From the NCBI RefSeq assembly GCF_006517175.1, contig NZ_CP041186.1, forward strand, positions 4,987,074 to 5,051,073: 64,000 bases of DNA, in the 5' to 3' direction. Below are positions 51,094 to 60,640 of the stretch, piece after piece. The notes beneath the pieces are model-generated. The model was not told the origin of the DNA. It did no database searches and saw only the letters and a list, made by a program, of their open reading frames with translations. Position 1 is the stretch's first letter. Every line of letters begins with the position of its first letter. The translations under genes were made by a program, and so were the position numbers. Source of the DNA: Persicimonas caeni. Its GTDB lineage: Bacteria > Myxococcota_A > Bradymonadia > Bradymonadales > Bradymonadaceae.

Positions 51094-51378
51094 ATGACCG
51101 TCGAGCGTAAGCGCGCACAAATTCGGATTGCCGGCAAGGTACAGGGCGTTTTCTTCCGGGCCTCGGCCCGCGAGCAGGCCCGAGCTCGAAACCTTGGCGG
51201 GTGGGTCAGAAATAACCCCGATGGCACCGTCGAGGCGGTGCTCGAGGGGCCGGCCGACGACGTCGAAGAGGTCGTCGAGTGGGCCCACCACGGCCCCAAG
51301 GCCGCCCAGGTCGACGATATCGACGTGCAGTGGATGGACCCGAAGGGCGATGTCCAAACTTTCGAAGTGAGGCGATAG
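51094..51378 (+). CDS. acyP: Acylphosphatase
   Basis: 94 residues; hydrolyses acyl phosphates. IAGKVQGVFFRASAREQA contains the catalytic Arg, and LGGWVRNNPDGTVEAVLEG the catalytic Asn. Start ATG 51094 with CGGAGG upstream. Likely in one transcript with the C69 peptidase (22-bp gap) and hrpB (7-bp gap). Confidence 0.96.
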   Translation: MTVERKRAQIRIAGKVQGVFFRASAREQARARNLGGWVRNNPDGTVEAVLEGPADDVEEVVEWAHHGPKAAQVDDIDVQWMDPKGDVQTFEVRR

Positions 51379-51385
51379 TCGCAGT

Positions 51386-53872
51386 ATGCAGTTGCCGGTT
51401 GATGCAGTACGGGAAGAATTCGAAAGCGCACTCGGAGCCGGGGCGCCGTTGATCGTGACGGCGCCCACCGGCTCCGGTAAGTCGACGCGGCTGCCGCTGT
51501 GGATGGCAGAGAGGCTCGACGGGCCCATCTTGGTCGTCGAGCCCAGGCGCGTGGCGTGTCGGTCGCTGGCCGGTTGGCTCAGCGAGGGCCGCGGCGAGCC
51601 GGTGGGCAAGACGATCGGCTACACGGTGCGCTTCGACGACCGCACGAGCGACGCGACCGAAGTCGTCTTCGCCACCACCGGCGTCGCGCTGCGCATGCTC
51701 GGCCAAAATCCAACGGAACAAGACGGCTTTCGCTTCGCCGGCGTGCTCATCGACGAGTTCCACGAGCGAAGCTGGCAGGTCGACCTGATCTTGGCCGTGC
51801 TGCGCTCGCGCCGTCAGGCCGGCGACGATCTCCCGCTCGTCATCACCTCGGCCACCCTCGACGTCGACGCCCTGGTGGGCGACCTCGGCGCGAACCTCAT
51901 CGAGGCCTCCGGGCGCACCTATCCCGTCGACGTCGAGTATATCGACGAGCCCAAAGCCCCCAGCCGCCACAACCTCGACAGCCGCGTGGCCGACGCGGTC
52001 AAACGCGCCCTCGACGGCGACGACGGCGACGTGCTCGTCTTCTTGCCCGGCAAAGGCGAGATCGCCGATTGCGAGCAGGCCCTCTCCAAAATCTGCCAGA
52101 AACGCGGCGCCGAGGCCGTCGCCGTCCACGGCGGCTTGCCGCCCGACCGCATGAAGCAGGCGCTCGCCCAATCGGCCGACAAACGCCGGGTCTACCTGTC
52201 GACCAACGTCGCCGAGACCTCCGTGACGCTCCCCGGCGTGACCACCGTCATCGACAGCGGCCTGGCCCGCATGCGCATCCACCGCGGCGGCCGCAGCGCG
52301 CTCGCCCTCGTCCCCATCGCCCAGGACTCGATGGACCAGCGCGCCGGCCGCGCCGGCCGCGTGCGCCCGGGCCGCTGCATCCGGCTGTGGAGCCGGCGCT
52401 TTCGCCCCCAGCGCGTCACCGCCCCCGAGGTCGAGCGCATCGAGCTCGACGACGTCTTGCTGCACGCCGGCGTCTGCGGCCTCGAGGGCCCCAAACTCGA
52501 CCGCGCCCCCTGGGTCACCGAGCCGCCCGAATTCGCCGTCGCCGGGGCCAAAGAGCGCCTCGTCGCCGTGGGCGCCTTCGACCGCCGATTCCACATCACG
52601 CCCAAGGGCGAGACCTTGGCCGAGCTGCCCGTCGACGGCCACGACGCGCGCATGCTCATCGGCGTGACCGACGAGATGGCCGGCATCACCTGCGACCTGG
52701 TCGCCCTGCTGCAGCTCAACCGCCCGCTGATGCTGTCCACCGGCGACCGCGACGTCCACCGCGCCCGCGCCGAGCTGTGCCGCGGGCTGACCAACGAGGT
52801 CTTCGTCGAGGTGCAGATGATCCGGCGCGGCTCGGTGCGCAAACACCGGCTGCACGGCTCGGCGCTCGACGAGGCGCGCAAGGTCTCGGCGAGCCTGCGC
52901 GAGCTGGTCGACGCGCCCGTCAAAGACCCCACCCGCGACGACGCCGAGCTCCCCGACCCGCACGCCTTCGCCGAATACCTGCTCGAGCGCATCCCCGAGA
53001 CCGCCTTCGTGCTGCGCGAGCGCGCCAAGCGCCGCCGCGACGGCAACAAGCCGCGCCCGGGCCGAAGCGAGCCGTGGGCCAACGGCGAGGTCGAGCTGAG
53101 TGTGTGGCCCTACAGCCCGCCGCGCCTCGAGCACGAAGACGAGCCCCCCGCGCCCATCGCCGGCCTCGTGCTCGACCATTTCTGGCTGGGCGACGGCGGC
53201 ACCGGCGTGCGCGGCACCGGCCGCATGGTGCTCCCGTGCACCTACGACCAGCTCGCCGACGCCGGCTTGGGCAACGAGACGCTCGGCAAGGTCGAGCTGC
53301 GCGGCGGCCGCGTCGTCGCCCGCGTCGAGCGCGAGCTGGGCGGCGTGACGATCTCGGCGCGCGACGAAGGCCTGCGCGGCCCGCGCCTGTGGGACGCCGC
53401 CGCCGACCTCATCCTCGAAAACCGCCTCTTCAAAGGCGCCGGCGACGCCGTCCGCGACGACCTGCACCTGTGGGGCGTCCTCGCCGACTGGCCCGCCGAA
53501 GAGCGCATGTGGGACGACACGCCGGCCCCCGCGCCGCGCGCCTACCTGGTGGAACGCCTCAAACTCCTCGGCCTCACCCGCTCCGACGAGCTCGCCCTGC
53601 TCGAAGCCGACGACCTACGCCCCGACCTCGTCGCCGAGCTCGACGTCCCCGCCTACGAACTCGAACGCTTCGCCGACGACTTCCCCCGCCAATGGGAGCA
53701 CATGGGCTGCGTCTACGAATGCCTCGTGCAGGCGACCAGCCGCAAGATCATCCTCGAGCCGGCCAACAAGAAAGCCAAACGCGGCAAAGACCCCAAGGCT
53801 GGGGTGTTGCCGCGCTTCCGTGGCTTCTCGGTCTACTTCCGCAACGCTAGCCGGGTTGTGCGTGTTCGTTGA
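51386..53872 (+). CDS. hrpB: ATP-dependent helicase HrpB
   Basis: 828 residues of a DEAH/RHA-type helicase; its cellular substrate is not well defined in bacteria. TAPTGSGKST (Walker A), LIDEFHERS (motif II, DEFH), SATLD, STNVAETSVTLPGV and QRAGRAGRVRPG (motif VI) are present. The C-terminal third has the HrpB-specific region with LPEFRGFSVYF-like LPRFRGFSVYFRNAS. It is the third gene of a probable operon. The coding strand is very GC-rich and leaves long false open frames on other frames. Confidence 0.95.
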   Translation: MQLPVDAVREEFESALGAGAPLIVTAPTGSGKSTRLPLWMAERLDGPILVVEPRRVACRSLAGWLSEGRGEPVGKTIGYTVRFDDRTSDATEVVFATTGVALRMLGQNPTEQDGFRFAGVLIDEFHERSWQVDLILAVLRSRRQAGDDLPLVITSATLDVDALVGDLGANLIEASGRTYPVDVEYIDEPKAPSRHNLDSRVADAVKRALDGDDGDVLVFLPGKGEIADCEQALSKICQKRGAEAVAVHGGLPPDRMKQALAQSADKRRVYLSTNVAETSVTLPGVTTVIDSGLARMRIHRGGRSALALVPIAQDSMDQRAGRAGRVRPGRCIRLWSRRFRPQRVTAPEVERIELDDVLLHAGVCGLEGPKLDRAPWVTEPPEFAVAGAKERLVAVGAFDRRFHITPKGETLAELPVDGHDARMLIGVTDEMAGITCDLVALLQLNRPLMLSTGDRDVHRARAELCRGLTNEVFVEVQMIRRGSVRKHRLHGSALDEARKVSASLRELVDAPVKDPTRDDAELPDPHAFAEYLLERIPETAFVLRERAKRRRDGNKPRPGRSEPWANGEVELSVWPYSPPRLEHEDEPPAPIAGLVLDHFWLGDGGTGVRGTGRMVLPCTYDQLADAGLGNETLGKVELRGGRVVARVERELGGVTISARDEGLRGPRLWDAAADLILENRLFKGAGDAVRDDLHLWGVLADWPAEERMWDDTPAPAPRAYLVERLKLLGLTRSDELALLEADDLRPDLVAELDVPAYELERFADDFPRQWEHMGCVYECLVQATSRKIILEPANKKAKRGKDPKAGVLPRFRGFSVYFRNASRVVRVR

Positions 53873-53900
53873 TTCTTTGACCTTGGTCGAGTTGGTTTTG

Positions 53901-54064
53901 AACCGCAAAGGTCGCAATTTGCCGTTCGCATTCTGAGCCTCGTCGCAATTCGCAGCCCCTATGTCCTTAATTGCCCATATAGAAGGCGTTTCAACCCCTG
54001 CAACGCCGCCGACGGCCCCCATTTTCCCTTTGCTTCCTTTGCGTACTTCGCGACCTTTGCGGTT
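53901..54064. repeat. Inverted repeat with AACCGCAAAGG motif
   Basis: AACCGCAAAGGTCGC (53901-53915) and its exact reverse complement (54050-54064) frame the 216-bp gap between hrpB and the CULT gene. The right arm extends into a run of CTTTGCNTNC-like steps (54027-54060). Similar CGCAAAGG/CTTTGCG runs are seen between genes in many bacteria; function unknown. Confidence 0.75.
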
Positions 54065-54088
54065 AGCCCCCCTGGTGGTGTCACGCCA

Positions 54089-54490
54089 CTAGCTCAACCG
54101 ATTCAGAATCAGCCCATAGAACTCGTTGTCCGACGACCAGAAGCGCCAGCCCAAATGCGTCTTGCAGTTCGTGCAGATGGCGACCTGCCACACGTAGCCG
54201 TCGAACCAGCTGAAGTCGTCGCTCTCGGGGCCGATTTCGCGGCAGCCGTCGGCTTCTTTGAAGCAGCCGATCTCGAACAGGATGCCCGCCGGGTTGACGC
54301 AGGTGTGGGCGAATTGGCCGCCCACGCTGGTGCGGTGTTTGGTGTGGGTGACCTCTTGGCCGCAGGCGGCGCAGTTGAGCGCCTCGTCTTCTTGGCGTTG
54401 CTCGTCGTGCTCGGGCTGGGCTTCGTCGGTGGGGGCTTGGGCCGGAGGGGCGGCCGTGGTGGCGTCGTCGGTTTGGTCGAGCAGTTCCAT
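54089..54490 (-). CDS. CULT-domain protein (bacterial cereblon-like)
   Basis: 133 residues: a disordered acidic N-terminus (1-38) and a ~95-residue CULT domain. Zinc ligands Cys40-x2-Cys43 and Cys106-x2-Cys109. The segment SWFDGYVWQVAICTNC and then HLGWRF (95-117) parallels human cereblon SWFPGYAWTVAQCKIC and HIGWKF. The three tryptophans of the thalidomide-binding cage align as Trp95, Trp101 and Trp115. HTCVNPAG and the closing FYGLILNRL also fit. Single-domain CULT proteins occur in some proteobacteria; their natural ligands are unknown, with modified (cyclic imide or uracil-like) groups proposed. No signal peptide. It lies 108 bp downstream of a kinase/ATPase gene on the same strand. Confidence 0.9.
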   Translation of the reverse strand: MELLDQTDDATTAAPPAQAPTDEAQPEHDEQRQEDEALNCAACGQEVTHTKHRTSVGGQFAHTCVNPAGILFEIGCFKEADGCREIGPESDDFSWFDGYVWQVAICTNCKTHLGWRFWSSDNEFYGLILNRLS

Positions 54491-54598
54491 GGCGGCCTCG
54501 TCGGCGTTGAGAGTCGGCGTTGGGAGTCGGCGTAATGGGCGGCGGAGCGGGTGGGTGCTTTCGAGAATGTGGGGGCGAGGGCGCGGCTTGGCAACCGT

Positions 54599-57500
54599 TC
54601 AGGCGCCTTGGGCGTTCAGGCGTTGCTGGGCGGCGGCGTCGAAGAGGCGCGTGGCGTAGTCGTTGTGGCGCGCGTCGGCGGCCAACTGGCCTGCTTTTTC
54701 GAGGCAGATGGCCAGGTCGACGTCGACGAGGCCCGTCGCCCCGATGCCCTCGAGCACGAGCCCCAGGCGTCGCTCGAAGGTGTACCAGTCGGCCTCGGCG
54801 GCCAGGCAGGGCAGCGAGATGGCGCGGGTGTAGAGCAAAAAGCGCGCGTGTTGCTGGCGCTCGAAGCCCGGGGCGAGGTCGTCCAAGATCGGCTTGGCTT
54901 GCTTGAAGCGGTCGGTCTGCACGTAGATCAACGCCAGGTTGAGCAGGGCGGTGCTCACCCCGCGTTGGTGGTGGGTGTCCTCCCCGGCGACCACCTTGCG
55001 GTAGATCTGCTCGGCCTCGGCCAGGCGTCCCTGCAGGCGGACCACGTCGCCCAGCGAGTTCATCAGCATGCTCAGCACCAGGTAGTGCCCCGTCTCGTTG
55101 CAGTGGGCGAGGGCCTCGCGAAAGACCGCCTCGGCCTCGGCCAGCCGGCCGCGATGGCGCTCGCAGCTGCCCAGCGCGTCGAGCACGGCGGGCAGGTGGA
55201 GGGTGTCGTCGAGCGCGGTGGCCAGCGCGCGGGCCTTCTCGAGGTGCTCGACGGCCTCGTCGGGGCGGCCCAGACGGGTCAGCGCCTGGCCCATGCCGCT
55301 GGCCAGGCGCATCGCCAGATCGTCGTCGTCGAAGTCCGCGGCGAGCGCTTGCGCGCGCTGCAGCAAGGGGAGGGCGCGCCCGTAGTCGCCCTGGAATTGG
55401 ACGCACTGCGAAAGCCGGTAGCAGCACGTGGCCGTCAGCCGCGGGTCGTCGAGCTTCTCGGCGCTGTTCAGCGCGCGCCGGGCCAGGGCGTAGGCGGCCT
55501 CGTAGTCGTGCAGAAACGCCATGCAGATCGCCCGCAGCGCCCAGTTCTCGATGCGCGGCGCGCACACTGTCGGCAGACCCAGCGCCTCGATCGCCCCCTC
55601 GCGAAGGTCGAGCAGGACCAGCGTGGCCTCGAAGTCCGAGGCGTTGCCGCGCGCCCTCGCGCCGACGAGCAGCGGGTCGAGCGCGTCCAAATAGGCGCGC
55701 GCGGCCAGCAGGTGGCGGCCGAGGCGCTCGGCGGCTTGCTTCTCGCCGCCGTAGCGCTCCTGGAGCATCCGCGCGCACACCCGGTGGTGGCCCACGTAGC
55801 GGCCCGCTTCCTTGGCGCGGCGCTCCAGCGACTCGCGCAGCATGCTGTGGGCGAAGCGCACGCCCGTGTCGGTCTCGTCGAGCAGCCGGTGCGACAAGAG
55901 TCGCTGGATCTGGGCTTCGGGAAAGCCCGTGCCCGTCAGACGCAGGCTCGCTCGCCACTCGGCTTCGTTGACCTCCAGGCCGAGCACGGCGGCGAGCTCG
56001 AGGGCGTACATCGTCTCTTCGTCGGCCTGCGACAGCGCGCGCTCCAGCCGGCTCGACCACACCTCGAAGACGTCGTCGGGCACCGGCGCCTCCTCGCCGT
56101 CGGCGAGCACGAACCCCGCCTCGCCGACCTCGAGCACCCCGCGATCGACCCAGTCGCCCACCAACTGCACCGCAAAGAGCGGGTTGCCCCGCGTGCGGTC
56201 GGCGACCTGCCGGGCGAGGGCGGGGGCCAGATGCAGCAAGGTCTCGATGAACCGAGCCTGCTCGTGCGACGGCAGCGGGCCGAGCCCCACGTGGGTGATG
56301 GCCTTGTGCAGGGCGAACTCGGCGACCAGATGCATCGCGGTCGACTGGTCGACGAGCGCCTCGCTGCGGATGGTGCCCACGAGCACCAGCGGCACGTCGG
56401 CGCACGCGTCGCTGTCGAGGCAATAGCGCAAAAGGCTTAGGCTGTCGGAGGACCACTGCAGGTCGTCGAGCCACACGATCACCGCGCGCTCCCGGGCGAT
56501 GAGGCCCAGCACCCGCGCGATCAGCGCGTAGCGTTGCTCGGGGCGGGCGAACTGGATCTTGCGCTGGCCGCGCTCGAGGTCGGCCTCGGTCGCAGGCGAG
56601 ATGATCTCGGCCAGCGCGTCCCACTCGTAGGCGTCGTCGACGCCGCGCGCTCGAAACCAGCCCCGCAGCCGCTCGACGAGCGCGGCGCGCTCGAGCCCGG
56701 CGGCGCGAAAATGGCGGGCGAGCATCTTGGGCAGCCCCTCGCCGCCGCCGGGGCTGGGGCTGTGGGTCGCGCGCAGGTTCAGCGCCAGGCCCAACTCCTC
56801 GGCGCGCTCGCACAGCCACTGGGCCAAAAAGCTCTTGCCCACCCCCGACGGCCCGCGGATGAGCGCCGCGCGCGGGCTGTGCGTCTCGACCGCCTCGCAC
56901 AGCGTCGTCCACAGCGCGTCGCGCTCCTCCTGACGGCCGACCAGCGGCACGTGGCGAAGCCCGTACAGGCCCAGCCCGGCGCCCAGAAGCTGGAAGGAAC
57001 GCTCCGGCTTGGACGCGCGGCGCGGCCTCGTCGCCTTCTGGGTGCCCGTCGACTGCAGCGGGCTCATCTCCGGAAGCGGCCTCATTTCCTGCAGTGGACC
57101 GGACGCGTCGGCCGCGTTGCGGTAGCGCTCGAGCGGATCTTTGTGCAACAGCCGGCGCACCCAGCCCTCGAACGCCTCGGGCACCGCGATGCGCGGCTCG
57201 AGCGGCGGGATAGGCGCGTGCAGGTGCTTCTTGGCGACCGAGACCGTCGGAAACGCGCGGTACACCGGCTTGCCGCACACCAGGTAGTAGGCCAGGCACC
57301 CGATGGCGTACAGGTCGGTCCAGGGGCCGACGTCTCGCCAGTGGCCCCGGAACTGCTCGGGCGACATGAACGACGGCGTGCCGCAGGCGCCACGCAAGAC
57401 CGCGTCCTCGAAGCGCTCGGCGACGAACGCCAGGCCGAAGTCGGTCAGCTTGACGCGGCCCCAGTCCGGTTCGTCGGCCAGCAGGATATTGCCGGGCTTG

Positions 57501-57961
57501 ATGTCGCGGTGGATGACCCCGCGAGCGTGGGCGTGGGCCAGGGCGTCGAGCAGCGCGAGCAGAATGGAGCGAATCGACGCGAAGGAGAGCTGGCGCTCGA
57601 CGTCGGCCAGCGACCCCCGCGGGCACAACTCCATCGCCAGGTACGGACTATGCGCCCGAAGCTCGCCGAGCGTCGCGTCCTCGACCTCGGGAGTGACCTC
57701 GCCGTGGTCGAAGACCATCACCACGCCCGGATGACTCAGCCCGGCGACCGCGCGCACCTCCTGGCGAAACTGACGCCCGTACTCCTCACGCAGCGCCTGC
57801 TCCTCGGTCACCACCTTGATGGCCGCGTCCACCCCCTGCTCACGATGCCGCGCCCGCCACACCTGGCCCATCGCCCCCTCACCCAAAAACTCGAGCAGGT
57901 CGAACGGCCCCAACTGACCGATCGGTTCGGCAGGGCGATAATGTGGAGAGTTGGAGGTCAC
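54599..57961 (-). CDS. Ser/Thr protein kinase with AAA ATPase and TPR domains
   Basis: About 1120 residues from GTG 57961; the start is uncertain as no clear Shine-Dalgarno is present, and an upstream reading enters repeats. Kinase domain (~15-280): GEGAMGQVWRA, Lys in AAIKVV, HRDIKPGN, TDFGLAF, CGTPSFMSPEQF. Then LVGRQEERDALW and the P-loop GPSGVGKS with AVIVWLDDLQW (AAA_16/PknK-type ATPase), an RTRGNPLFAVQLVGDW sensor-like helix, and a C-terminal array of TPR-like helices (~720-1110). Such fused kinases are abundant in myxobacteria as signalling regulators. Paralogous to the gene at the right edge. Confidence 0.9.
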   Translation of the reverse strand: MTSNSPHYRPAEPIGQLGPFDLLEFLGEGAMGQVWRARHREQGVDAAIKVVTEEQALREEYGRQFRQEVRAVAGLSHPGVVMVFDHGEVTPEVEDATLGELRAHSPYLAMELCPRGSLADVERQLSFASIRSILLALLDALAHAHARGVIHRDIKPGNILLADEPDWGRVKLTDFGLAFVAERFEDAVLRGACGTPSFMSPEQFRGHWRDVGPWTDLYAIGCLAYYLVCGKPVYRAFPTVSVAKKHLHAPIPPLEPRIAVPEAFEGWVRRLLHKDPLERYRNAADASGPLQEMRPLPEMSPLQSTGTQKATRPRRASKPERSFQLLGAGLGLYGLRHVPLVGRQEERDALWTTLCEAVETHSPRAALIRGPSGVGKSFLAQWLCERAEELGLALNLRATHSPSPGGGEGLPKMLARHFRAAGLERAALVERLRGWFRARGVDDAYEWDALAEIISPATEADLERGQRKIQFARPEQRYALIARVLGLIARERAVIVWLDDLQWSSDSLSLLRYCLDSDACADVPLVLVGTIRSEALVDQSTAMHLVAEFALHKAITHVGLGPLPSHEQARFIETLLHLAPALARQVADRTRGNPLFAVQLVGDWVDRGVLEVGEAGFVLADGEEAPVPDDVFEVWSSRLERALSQADEETMYALELAAVLGLEVNEAEWRASLRLTGTGFPEAQIQRLLSHRLLDETDTGVRFAHSMLRESLERRAKEAGRYVGHHRVCARMLQERYGGEKQAAERLGRHLLAARAYLDALDPLLVGARARGNASDFEATLVLLDLREGAIEALGLPTVCAPRIENWALRAICMAFLHDYEAAYALARRALNSAEKLDDPRLTATCCYRLSQCVQFQGDYGRALPLLQRAQALAADFDDDDLAMRLASGMGQALTRLGRPDEAVEHLEKARALATALDDTLHLPAVLDALGSCERHRGRLAEAEAVFREALAHCNETGHYLVLSMLMNSLGDVVRLQGRLAEAEQIYRKVVAGEDTHHQRGVSTALLNLALIYVQTDRFKQAKPILDDLAPGFERQQHARFLLYTRAISLPCLAAEADWYTFERRLGLVLEGIGATGLVDVDLAICLEKAGQLAADARHNDYATRLFDAAAQQRLNAQGA

Positions 57962-58068
57962 GGCGGCTACGACTCGGTACAAAGGCTGCTCAGTGCAGAG
58001 GTGCCGGTGAGGATCGGGGATTCGAGGGCGCTTGCCAAGGGGCGCAGAGAGAAAAATGTGATTTTTGG

Positions 58069-58142
58069 GGCGCGGTCGTCTCGACCGCCGGGGTCCGTCT
58101 CGGGCCCCGCACGTGTACGAGCAGGGCGTGCGCCCTGCTGAG
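58069..58142. repeat. Partial copy of the 157-bp repeat before hexamer array A
   Basis: GCGCGGTCGTCTCGACCGCC and the following CACGTGTACGAGCAGGGCG part of the 157-bp unit, ending in GCCCTGC. It then switches into hexamer array A, exactly as at 58756-58832 before array B. Confidence 0.8.
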
Positions 58143-58276
58143 ACGGCTACGGTCACGGACACGGTGTCCGGCACCGGTCACGGCCCCCGGCCCCCGGCTC
58201 CGGCACCCGAGACCGTGTCCGTGTCCGTGTCCGTAGCCGTAGCCGTGACCGTGACCGTGATGGTGATCGTGACCGG
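58143..58276. repeat. Hexanucleotide satellite A, strand-switching
   Basis: Left part ACGGCTACGGTCACGGACAC (hexamers of GGNNAC type), a core with GGCACCCGAGACCG (58202-58215), then right part of GTGTCC/GTAGCC/GTGACC hexamers, which are reverse complements of the left type. The element ends ACCGGCCCCGCACGTG. The whole can fold as a long imperfect hairpin. Confidence 0.85.
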
Positions 58277-58832
58277 CCCCGCACGTGTACGAGCAGGGCG
58301 TGCGCCCTGCAGAAGACATGCAAGCTGGGGCGGTGACGCCCCAGGGCGGGCGAGGACGCCGCGCGCCCCGGGCAGGTTGTGCGTGCAGCAGGGAAGGGGC
58401 GCGGTCGTCTCGACCGCCGGGGTCCGTCTCGGGCCCCGCACGTGTACGAGCAGGGCGTGCGCCCTGCAGAAGACATGCAAGCTGGGGCGGTGACGCCCCA
58501 GGGCGGGCGAGGACGCCGCGCGCCCCGGGCAGGTTGTGCGTGCAGCAGGGAAGGGGCGCGGTCGTCTCGACCGCCGGGGTCCGTCTCGGGCCCCGCACGT
58601 GTACGAGCAGGGCGTGCGCCCTGCAGAAGACACGCAAGCTGGGGCGGTGACGCCCCAGGGCGGGCGAGGACGCCGCGCGGCCCGGCTGGGGCGGTGACGC
58701 CCCAGGGCGGGCGAGGACGCCGCGCGCCCCGGGCAGGTGTGCGTGCAGCAGGGAAGGGGCGCGGTCGTCTCCGGCCGCCGGGGTCCGTCTCGGGCCCCGC
58801 ACGTGTACGAGCAGGGCGTGCGCCCTGCTGAG
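58276..58832. repeat. 157-bp tandem repeat with hairpins
   Basis: About 3.3 copies; GCACGTGTAC recurs at 58281, 58438, 58595 and 58799 (periods 157, 157, 204). The last interval is longer because a 47-bp part with GGGGCGGTGACGCCCC is doubled. Each unit contains two strong hairpins: GCAGGGC-GTGC-GCCCTGC and CTGGGGCG-GTGA-CGCCCCAG, the latter with a GNRA-type loop on the + strand. No convincing gene. Confidence 0.9.
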
Positions 58833-59010
58833 ACGGCTACGGTCACGGACACGGTGTCCGGCACCGGTACGGCCCCCGGCCCCGGCACCCGAGACCGTGA
58901 CCGAGACCGTGACCGAGACCGTGTCCGAGACCGTGTCCGTAGCCGTGACCGTAACCGTGACCGTAACCGTGATCGTGATCGTGATCGTGATCGTAACCGT
59001 GACTTGCGCG
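58833..59010. repeat. Hexanucleotide satellite B, strand-switching
   Basis: Same design as array A: GACGGCTACGGTCACGGACA, a core with GGCACCCGAGACCG (58884-58897), then many GTGACC, GAGACC, GTAACC and GTGATC hexamers to 59004. The reverse-oriented part is longer than in array A. It ends 117 bp before the small gene at 59128. Confidence 0.85.
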
Positions 59011-60187: not shown

Positions 60188-60313
60188 GCGCCGCGACCCC
60201 CTGCGAGGGCGCCGCGACCCCCTGCGAGGGCGCCGCGACCCCCTGCGAGGGCGCCGCGACCCCCTGCGAGGGCGCCGCGACCCCCTGCGAGGGCGCCGCG
60301 ACCCCCTGCGAGT
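60188..60313. repeat. 21-bp tandem repeat, six copies
   Basis: The unit GCGCCGCGACCCCCTGCGAG(G) starts at 60188, 60209, 60230, 60251, 60272 and 60293, nearly identical. Being 7 codons long it keeps all frames open, which makes false long ORFs on both strands. Confidence 0.93.
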
Positions 60314-60330
60314 GAGTTACCCCCCCTGCG

Positions 60331-60640
60331 ACAGCCGCGACCACGGTTACGGTCACGGCTACGGCTACGGTTACGGCTACGGCTACGGCTACGGTTACGG
60401 TCACGGCTACGGCTACGGCTACGGTCACGGCTACGGCTACGGTCACGGCTACGGCACCCGAGACCGGCTCCGCGACCGTGTTCGTGTTCGTGTCCGTGTT
60501 CGTGTTCGTGTTCGTGTCCGTGACCGTAACCGTGCCCGTGACCGTAACCGTGCCCGTGTTCGTGTCCGTGTTCGTGTCCGTGACCGTGACCGTGTCCGTG
60601 ACCGTGTCCGTGTCCGTGACCGGCCCCGCACGTGTGAGGT
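60331..60640. repeat. Hexanucleotide satellite C, strand-switching
   Basis: Left part (60336-60452) of GGTTAC/GGCTAC/GGTCAC hexamers, a core GGCACCCGAGACCG (60452-60465), then a right part (60475-60622) of GTGTTC/GTGTCC/GTGACC/GTAACC hexamers in the opposite strand sense. It ends ACCGGCCCCGCACGTG as array A does. The longest of the three. Confidence 0.9.

Follow-up and report, generated by a model that had tools for sequence, protein, structure and literature searches.

A predicted stand-alone CULT domain protein of Persicimonas caeni: a near-invariant pocket and no conserved genomic partner in the loci examined

The window analysed in this study is a stretch of 64,000 nucleotides of Persicimonas caeni (Bradymonadaceae) and forms part of a single host contig of 8,047,206 bases. 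Positions given below are those of the window, and the features of the locus are collected in Table 1. A gene for a small CULT protein lies between a kinase gene on its own strand and a convergent helicase gene, the latter preceded by an acylphosphatase gene.

Table 1. Features at the CULT locus of the window
Feature	Position	Strand	Basis or remark
Acylphosphatase, just before HrpB	51094..51378	+	Same order in G003, which has no CULT match
HrpB-type DEAH helicase, convergent with CULT, 216 bp gap	51386..53872	+	NCBIfam HrpB, 336.8 bits, below the cut-off of 546
Stand-alone CULT protein, 133 aa	54089..54490	-	ATG at 54490, PDB sequence match, model
CULT domain proper, residues 38-132	54095..54379	-	phmmer alignment to MsCI4
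Acidic N-terminal tail (residues 1-37), modelled with low confidence	54380..54490	-	
Possible ribosome-binding site GAGG, 5 nt before ATG	54496..54499	-	Read from sequence
Ser/Thr kinase-AAA_16-TPR gene, mechanical ORF of 1191 aa, kinase domain residues 93-351	54599..58174	-	Pfam

We compared the 133-residue ORF with the sequences of the PDB by phmmer. MsCI4 was its best relative (residues 38-132, E 4.5e-24), with the Y101F variant 4v32 at E 4.5e-24 and 4v2y at E 1e-23, and human cereblon came next over residues 37/38-122 with a best E of 2.2e-12. These matches are far above chance. No CULT-named model was among the Pfam matches of the ORF, Yippee-Mis18 (PF03226) reached E 3.5e-4 and 21.1 bits, below its cut-off of 26.6, and the NCBIfam search gave no match at E <= 0.001. 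Alignment with MsCI4 placed the zinc cysteines at C40/C43 and C106/C109, as two CxxC pairs, and the cage tryptophans at W95, W101 and W115 (the W380/W386/W400 positions), with F117 aligned as well. The preliminary description had named both zinc pairs and given the same residue numbers for the three cage tryptophans, and the residues were found there; it had left the strand unstated. The hairpin NPxG occupies residues 66-69 (N66-P67-A68-G69), and we take it to be the motif meant in the 2015 description of the CULT family.

We then built an AlphaFold2 model of the protein from 34 sequences (window and loci). The mean pLDDT was 87.4, with 88 residues at or above 90, and the first three 10-residue blocks of the tail averaged 67, 68 and 58. 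In a Foldseek search with this model the top rows were all MsCI4 (E about 1e-9, best 1.1e-9 with probability 1.00, 38-42% identity), human cereblon came next with 31-34% identity, and the model matched a beta-tent fold like that of MsCI4. These computations show the predicted fold and the presence of every cage residue, the latter judged by sequence. The closest PDB relatives were CULT proteins and not members of another zinc-ribbon family. The earlier reading of this ORF as a free-standing CULT domain was thereby upheld, and by sequence and model it is almost certainly a genuine stand-alone bacterial CULT domain of the MsCI4 type.

Bacterial CULT proteins had been described as few, which did not hold. 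With F[ST]WFxGYxW as the only pattern, a scan that took one genome for each species yielded 314 stretches encoding CULT relatives. At E <= 0.001, a CULT match was found in 12 of 57 relatives and in 22 of 283 genomes sampled from the phylum, the host included and with one match each. On these sequence counts, bacterial CULT genes are common. A single-protein scan of genome contigs found no CULT, probably because its patterns derived from one sequence. A tree of 101 CULT domains comprised 55 labelled rows from Thermodesulfobacteriota (Desulfobacterota), 9 from Pseudomonadota, 7 from Myxococcota, 2 from Acidobacteriota and 2 from Spirochaetota, and 26 rows, including the window and the loci with G handles, carried no phylum label. 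The tree was poorly resolved, and the window paired with G015 (SH-aLRT 94). Bradymonadia have been placed in Myxococcota (PMC11509652), and NCBI puts Bradymonadales under Deltaproteobacteria. Two further ideas on the nature of the gene were rejected. For a mobile-element origin, IMG/VR gave no CULT match to the patterns applied there, and searches of plasmids and of phages gave none either. For a defence role, the CULT protein had no PADLOC match at E <= 0.001, and the kinase and helicase matches there read as generic domain matches.

The pocket was nearly invariant across this set. The four zinc cysteines, N66, P67, W101, W115 and F124 were identical in all 101 aligned homologues, and the three cage tryptophans occurred together in 100 of them. 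The fair figure for the three tryptophans is 21 of 22, because 79 of the 101 were found with a pattern fixing W95, Y99 and W101; the 80 loci kept for study were the best 80 of the 314, and the selecting pattern already holds two of the three cage tryptophans. The exception was the CULT protein of G007 (L013), where Phe replaces the first cage tryptophan and the branch is very long. Residue 68, an alanine here and presumably the counterpart of human H353, varies among homologues. The acidic N-terminus had been presented as an addition to the minimal domain. The 25 residues before C40 averaged 25% D+E versus 14% K+R, and were net acidic in 71 of 101 homologues, so that such acidity is common and no peculiarity of this protein; since start codons are uncertain, this result describes the sequence next to the domain.

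Next to the gene itself, we surveyed the neighbours of CULT at 100 loci (the window, L025-L044 and L046-L124; L045 was left out, as it begins like L025 and its contig is equally long), using mechanical ORF calls with uncertain start codons. The upstream neighbour was on the same strand as CULT at 57 of 98 loci, 41 of them with a gap below 150 bp, and the downstream neighbour at 42 of 97 loci, 24 with such a gap. Family tallies omitted rows that shared a local synteny group, as well as the 2081-residue ORF of L031. The commonest upstream Pfam families were HemD, tetrapyrrole methylase and response regulator, with 5 members each (78 of 97 neighbours), and downstream Helicase_C had 5 members (78 of 94 neighbours). 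These results indicate that no family is a general neighbour of CULT and that there is no conserved genomic partner in the loci examined. We found no published account of bacterial CULT gene neighbourhoods in the openly licensed literature, and the word 'operon' is absent from PMC4287342.

Some local arrangements were observed within the survey. A HemD/CobA-type gene lay upstream on the same strand in one Desulfobulbales-type group of 13 CULT loci (L048, L049, L051, L052, L053, L060, L063, L068, L071, L074, L080, L100 and L102), and at 9 of these 13 a convergent SNF2-type gene directly followed CULT (Pfam on L051). In G004 (L039, 9091-9819), CULT shares its strand with a TANGO2-family gene at a distance of 3 bp and with a 173-aa ORF at a distance of 11 bp; this ORF had no Pfam match at E <= 1e-4.

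The preliminary description had pointed to a Ser/Thr kinase-ATPase-TPR gene beside CULT on the same strand, and this was correct: the upstream gene has its end at 54599, which leaves 108 bp between it and the start of CULT. The true start of the kinase probably lies further in than the mechanical one, because its first residues look repeat-derived. Short stretches like this N-terminus recur elsewhere in the host genome, and tandem repeats lie upstream of the gene at 58207-59003 and 60188-60622, with units of 157 bp (2.6 copies, 99% match), 6 bp and 18/21/24 bp.

A functional link between the two genes had also been suggested. In such a unit, the kinase or STAND-like ATPase part would act on or with ligand-loaded CULT. 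The shared strand and short gap are consistent with this, as is the lack of a terminator-like site (on that strand) or a sigma-70-like promoter in 53850-54750, and kinase-AAA-TPR genes lay near CULT in three of the five CULT-bearing family genomes (window, G015 and G020). Against this, the window kinase is the last copy in a tandem array of four kinase-AAA_16-TPR paralogues (G000:C1:5041675-5060268, beginning at window position 54602); pieces of the other three were 56-78% identical to it in an own-genome search, and the four copies accompany one CULT gene. The host encodes many kinases besides, with 138 Pkinase rows corresponding to about 131 genes after split rows were merged by hand and one below the cut-off was left out. 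A kinase directly upstream of CULT on the same strand was seen at 1 of the 100 loci, the window alone, and the kinase was therefore no conserved neighbour.

We also examined related kinases in the family. In G015, which has the nearest CULT relative, the kinase lies 4.9 kb from CULT on the opposite strand; this assembly, which is 87% complete, has no other relative of the AAA-TPR part at E <= 1e-25. In G003, which belongs to the genus of G015 and has no CULT match, a kinase relative (34% identity over 930 residues) lies 0.5 kb before the acylphosphatase and HrpB genes. A tree of the AAA-TPR part, made from 42 rows picked from a larger match set, contained one supported set of 8 (97/94), comprising the four array genes of the window, the G015 gene, the HrpB neighbour of G003 (long-branched, its placement being less sure) and two other rows. 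The kinase beside the G020 CULT fell in another part of this tree, and no kinase was found within the stretches examined of G004 and G007 (for G007 the 11.4-kb contig L155). HrpB-type matches were present in all 21 family genomes, full-length and in one piece in 13, and CULT was present in 5 of those 21. The simplest reading of these gene orders would be that the window kinase is part of the HrpB neighbourhood and that CULT comes and goes.

To place this in the wider phylum, we counted kinases of any type near CULT at 21 loci. A kinase lay within 1.5 kb at 5 of 21 loci against 1.25 expected (nominal P 0.0066), within 3 kb at 5 against 2.35 (nominal P 0.077), within 5 kb at 9 against 3.59 (nominal P 0.005) and within 10 kb at 12 against 5.93 (nominal P 0.004), with all P values uncorrected and the distance thresholds chosen post hoc. 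The count leaves out G007 and G241, and adding G007 would weaken the excess slightly. Expected counts were derived from genome density, with first-look candidate counts for all genomes except the host; in the two genomes with complete scoring, such counts ran a little high (139 candidates against about 131 genes in the host, 69 against 61 matches in G015), and the test therefore leans conservative. The strands and distances of the kinases varied, and the over-represented ones belong to other clades. A weak regional kinase-CULT association in the phylum is possible, and a conserved CULT-kinase gene pair is not supported. The neighbour survey, kinase density, tandem array and kinase tree together led us to reject the kinase as an operon partner. 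A functional unit of the two proteins is very improbable in our judgement, and, judging from the sequence comparisons, the kinase is most likely a bystander, one copy of a tandem array.

HrpB was likewise rejected as a partner, as it adjoins CULT only in the window and G015. Helicases of several kinds lie about 1 kb or less from CULT in four locus groups, namely the HrpB type (window and G015), SNF2 (the Desulfobulbales-type group), UvrD (L116) and a ResIII/PbeA-like type (L069/L115/L118/L120, with an ORF between), and two further upstream neighbours matched AAA_11/AAA_19/UvrD-type families. This proximity bears on a reading in which CULT would sense or scavenge pyrimidines (uracil or uridine), possibly in connection with nucleic-acid repair, and in which the uracil ring would be held like glutarimide. 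MsCI4 is reported to bind thalidomide and uridine with comparable affinity, and no binding was seen for cytidine/cytosine and thymidine (PMC4449219); the deoxyuridine complex 4v31 was also among the best Foldseek matches of our model. Helicases were, however, also present among genes far from CULT. A far control of 111 of 117 sampled genes (4 lost to a residue limit and 2 left out for length) showed no Helicase_C, DEAD, SNF2 or UvrD among the 25 families listed, while UvrB_inter and Exonuc_V_gamma matched 2 members each; sequence search of far genes revealed the Mfd type in L084, L104 and L067 and an HrpB/HrpA-like gene in L121. By lineage there were about four near cases versus about three far ones, and with a class chosen post hoc and no test reaching significance, helicases were rejected as a general partner. 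The authors of the MsCI4 study themselves found no biological context for uridine (PMC4449219). Taken as a ligand, uridine could equally be the natural one; as a role, pyrimidine sensing or scavenging seems rather unlikely to us.

The reading that we prefer starts from the pocket. The protein is predicted to fold into a pair of beta-meanders held together by a single zinc at C40, C43, C106 and C109, and the NPxG hairpin would close off a hydrophobic cage formed by the three tryptophans. From the MsCI4 structures and binding data, this cage may bind small cyclic imides by their imide face, examples being glutarimide, aspartimide/succinimide and uracil. About a third of the MsCI4 domain is reported to fold upon binding (PMC4449219), and the window protein may similarly become ordered with its ligand. 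C-terminal cyclic imides, which arise by backbone cleavage or through PCMT1, bind the human cereblon domain (PMC11974815). By analogy with this human work, the natural ligand would be a C-terminal cyclic imide on a protein or peptide that has been cleaved, has aged or was modified by PIMT, and the CULT protein, free-standing as it is, could read or trap this mark of damage. Any effector would be encoded elsewhere, because the protein has no attached effector domain and no fixed operon partner was found in the loci examined. We tentatively favour the view that the window protein recognises small cyclic imides, possibly those at the C-termini of proteins, that it has no fixed genetic partner and that the kinase beside it is a bystander; this is plausible, though it falls somewhat short of probable. 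The broader proposal is more doubtful: across hundreds of genomes from Desulfobacterota, Myxococcota, Pseudomonadota, Spirochaetota and Acidobacteriota, CULT proteins might be free-standing readers of C-terminal cyclic imides (aspartimide/glutarimide) on proteins, and so provide a ubiquitin-independent recognition of damage that is either older than cereblon or parallel to it.

We looked for traces of such damage chemistry around CULT. The host has a PIMT-family gene (E 7.0e-69), and PIMT matches were found in 18 of 23 CULT genomes, some of these 18 being weak or partial (G023, G208 and G004), versus 68 of 111 in the phylum sample. The other five CULT genomes had no PIMT match at E <= 1e-10, although two of the five are 95-97% complete. 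Co-occurrence of PIMT with CULT was thus not clear and was set aside, and no PIMT gene was detected in the 100 CULT neighbourhood stretches. In G015, a gene of the isoaspartyl-peptidase/asparaginase-2 type (L025, 10470-11429) follows CULT on the same strand; it is a suggestive single instance, the only such gene near CULT among the 100 loci. C-terminal Asn/Gln in neighbour proteins was also considered and rejected, occurring in 20 of 185 versus 74 of 991 called genes (near ones included), without clear enrichment.

The cage might also bind some other imide-bearing metabolite or secondary-metabolite ring, of the hydantoin or succinimide type or an aspartimide peptide product, with CULT acting as a sensor or an immunity protein. 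The patchy distribution of CULT (22 of 283) would suit an accessory trait, many MsCI4 complexes among the structural matches suggest that the cage accepts many ring imides, and there are RiPPs that carry aspartimide and have PIMT homologues dedicated to them (PMC13001092). No biosynthetic family was present among the most frequent CULT neighbours (first 25 families listed), and the pocket is conserved in rows from five labelled phyla, which points to a widespread ligand. We regard such a specialised metabolite role as unlikely.

Targeted protein degradation uses the cereblon pocket as its main handle. A single member of the family adds little by itself. What the survey adds is that CULT genes are common (314 stretches), that the pocket is nearly invariant and that the loci examined share no conserved genomic partner. 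With no conserved partner and a near-invariant pocket, the ligand offers a better route to the natural role than the neighbourhood does. Persicimonas caeni is a cultured predatory bacterium that has one CULT gene, and it could serve as an organism for such a test.

Among known systems, the window protein is closest to MsCI4 (MGR_0879, cereblon isoform 4 of Magnetospirillum gryphiswaldense), which is likewise a single-domain CULT protein, with 38-42% identity and the same zinc pairs, hairpin and tri-Trp cage. It differs from MsCI4 in its added acidic N-terminal tail of 37 residues, in coming from a different organism group, and in F117, which stands where MsCI4 has a tyrosine (Y101); the Y101F variant of MsCI4 is chemically identical to the human cage. 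The thalidomide-binding (CULT) domain of human cereblon has the same fold and cage residues at 31-34% identity, whereas the window protein is free-standing at 133 aa, and no LON family was among its six Pfam matches at E <= 0.1. Yippee/Mis18 shares a related beta-tent zinc fold (PMC4287342), and the window protein is far closer to CULT than to that family, whose profile it matched below the cut-off (21.1 against 26.6 bits). Prokaryotic proteins consisting wholly of the CULT domain, mainly from delta-proteobacteria, were described in 2015 (PMC4287342). Nothing essential separates the window protein from bacterial CULT group I of that description (Lupas et al. 2015, PMC4287342), and since stand-alone bacterial CULT proteins were defined there, it is a further member of a known family.
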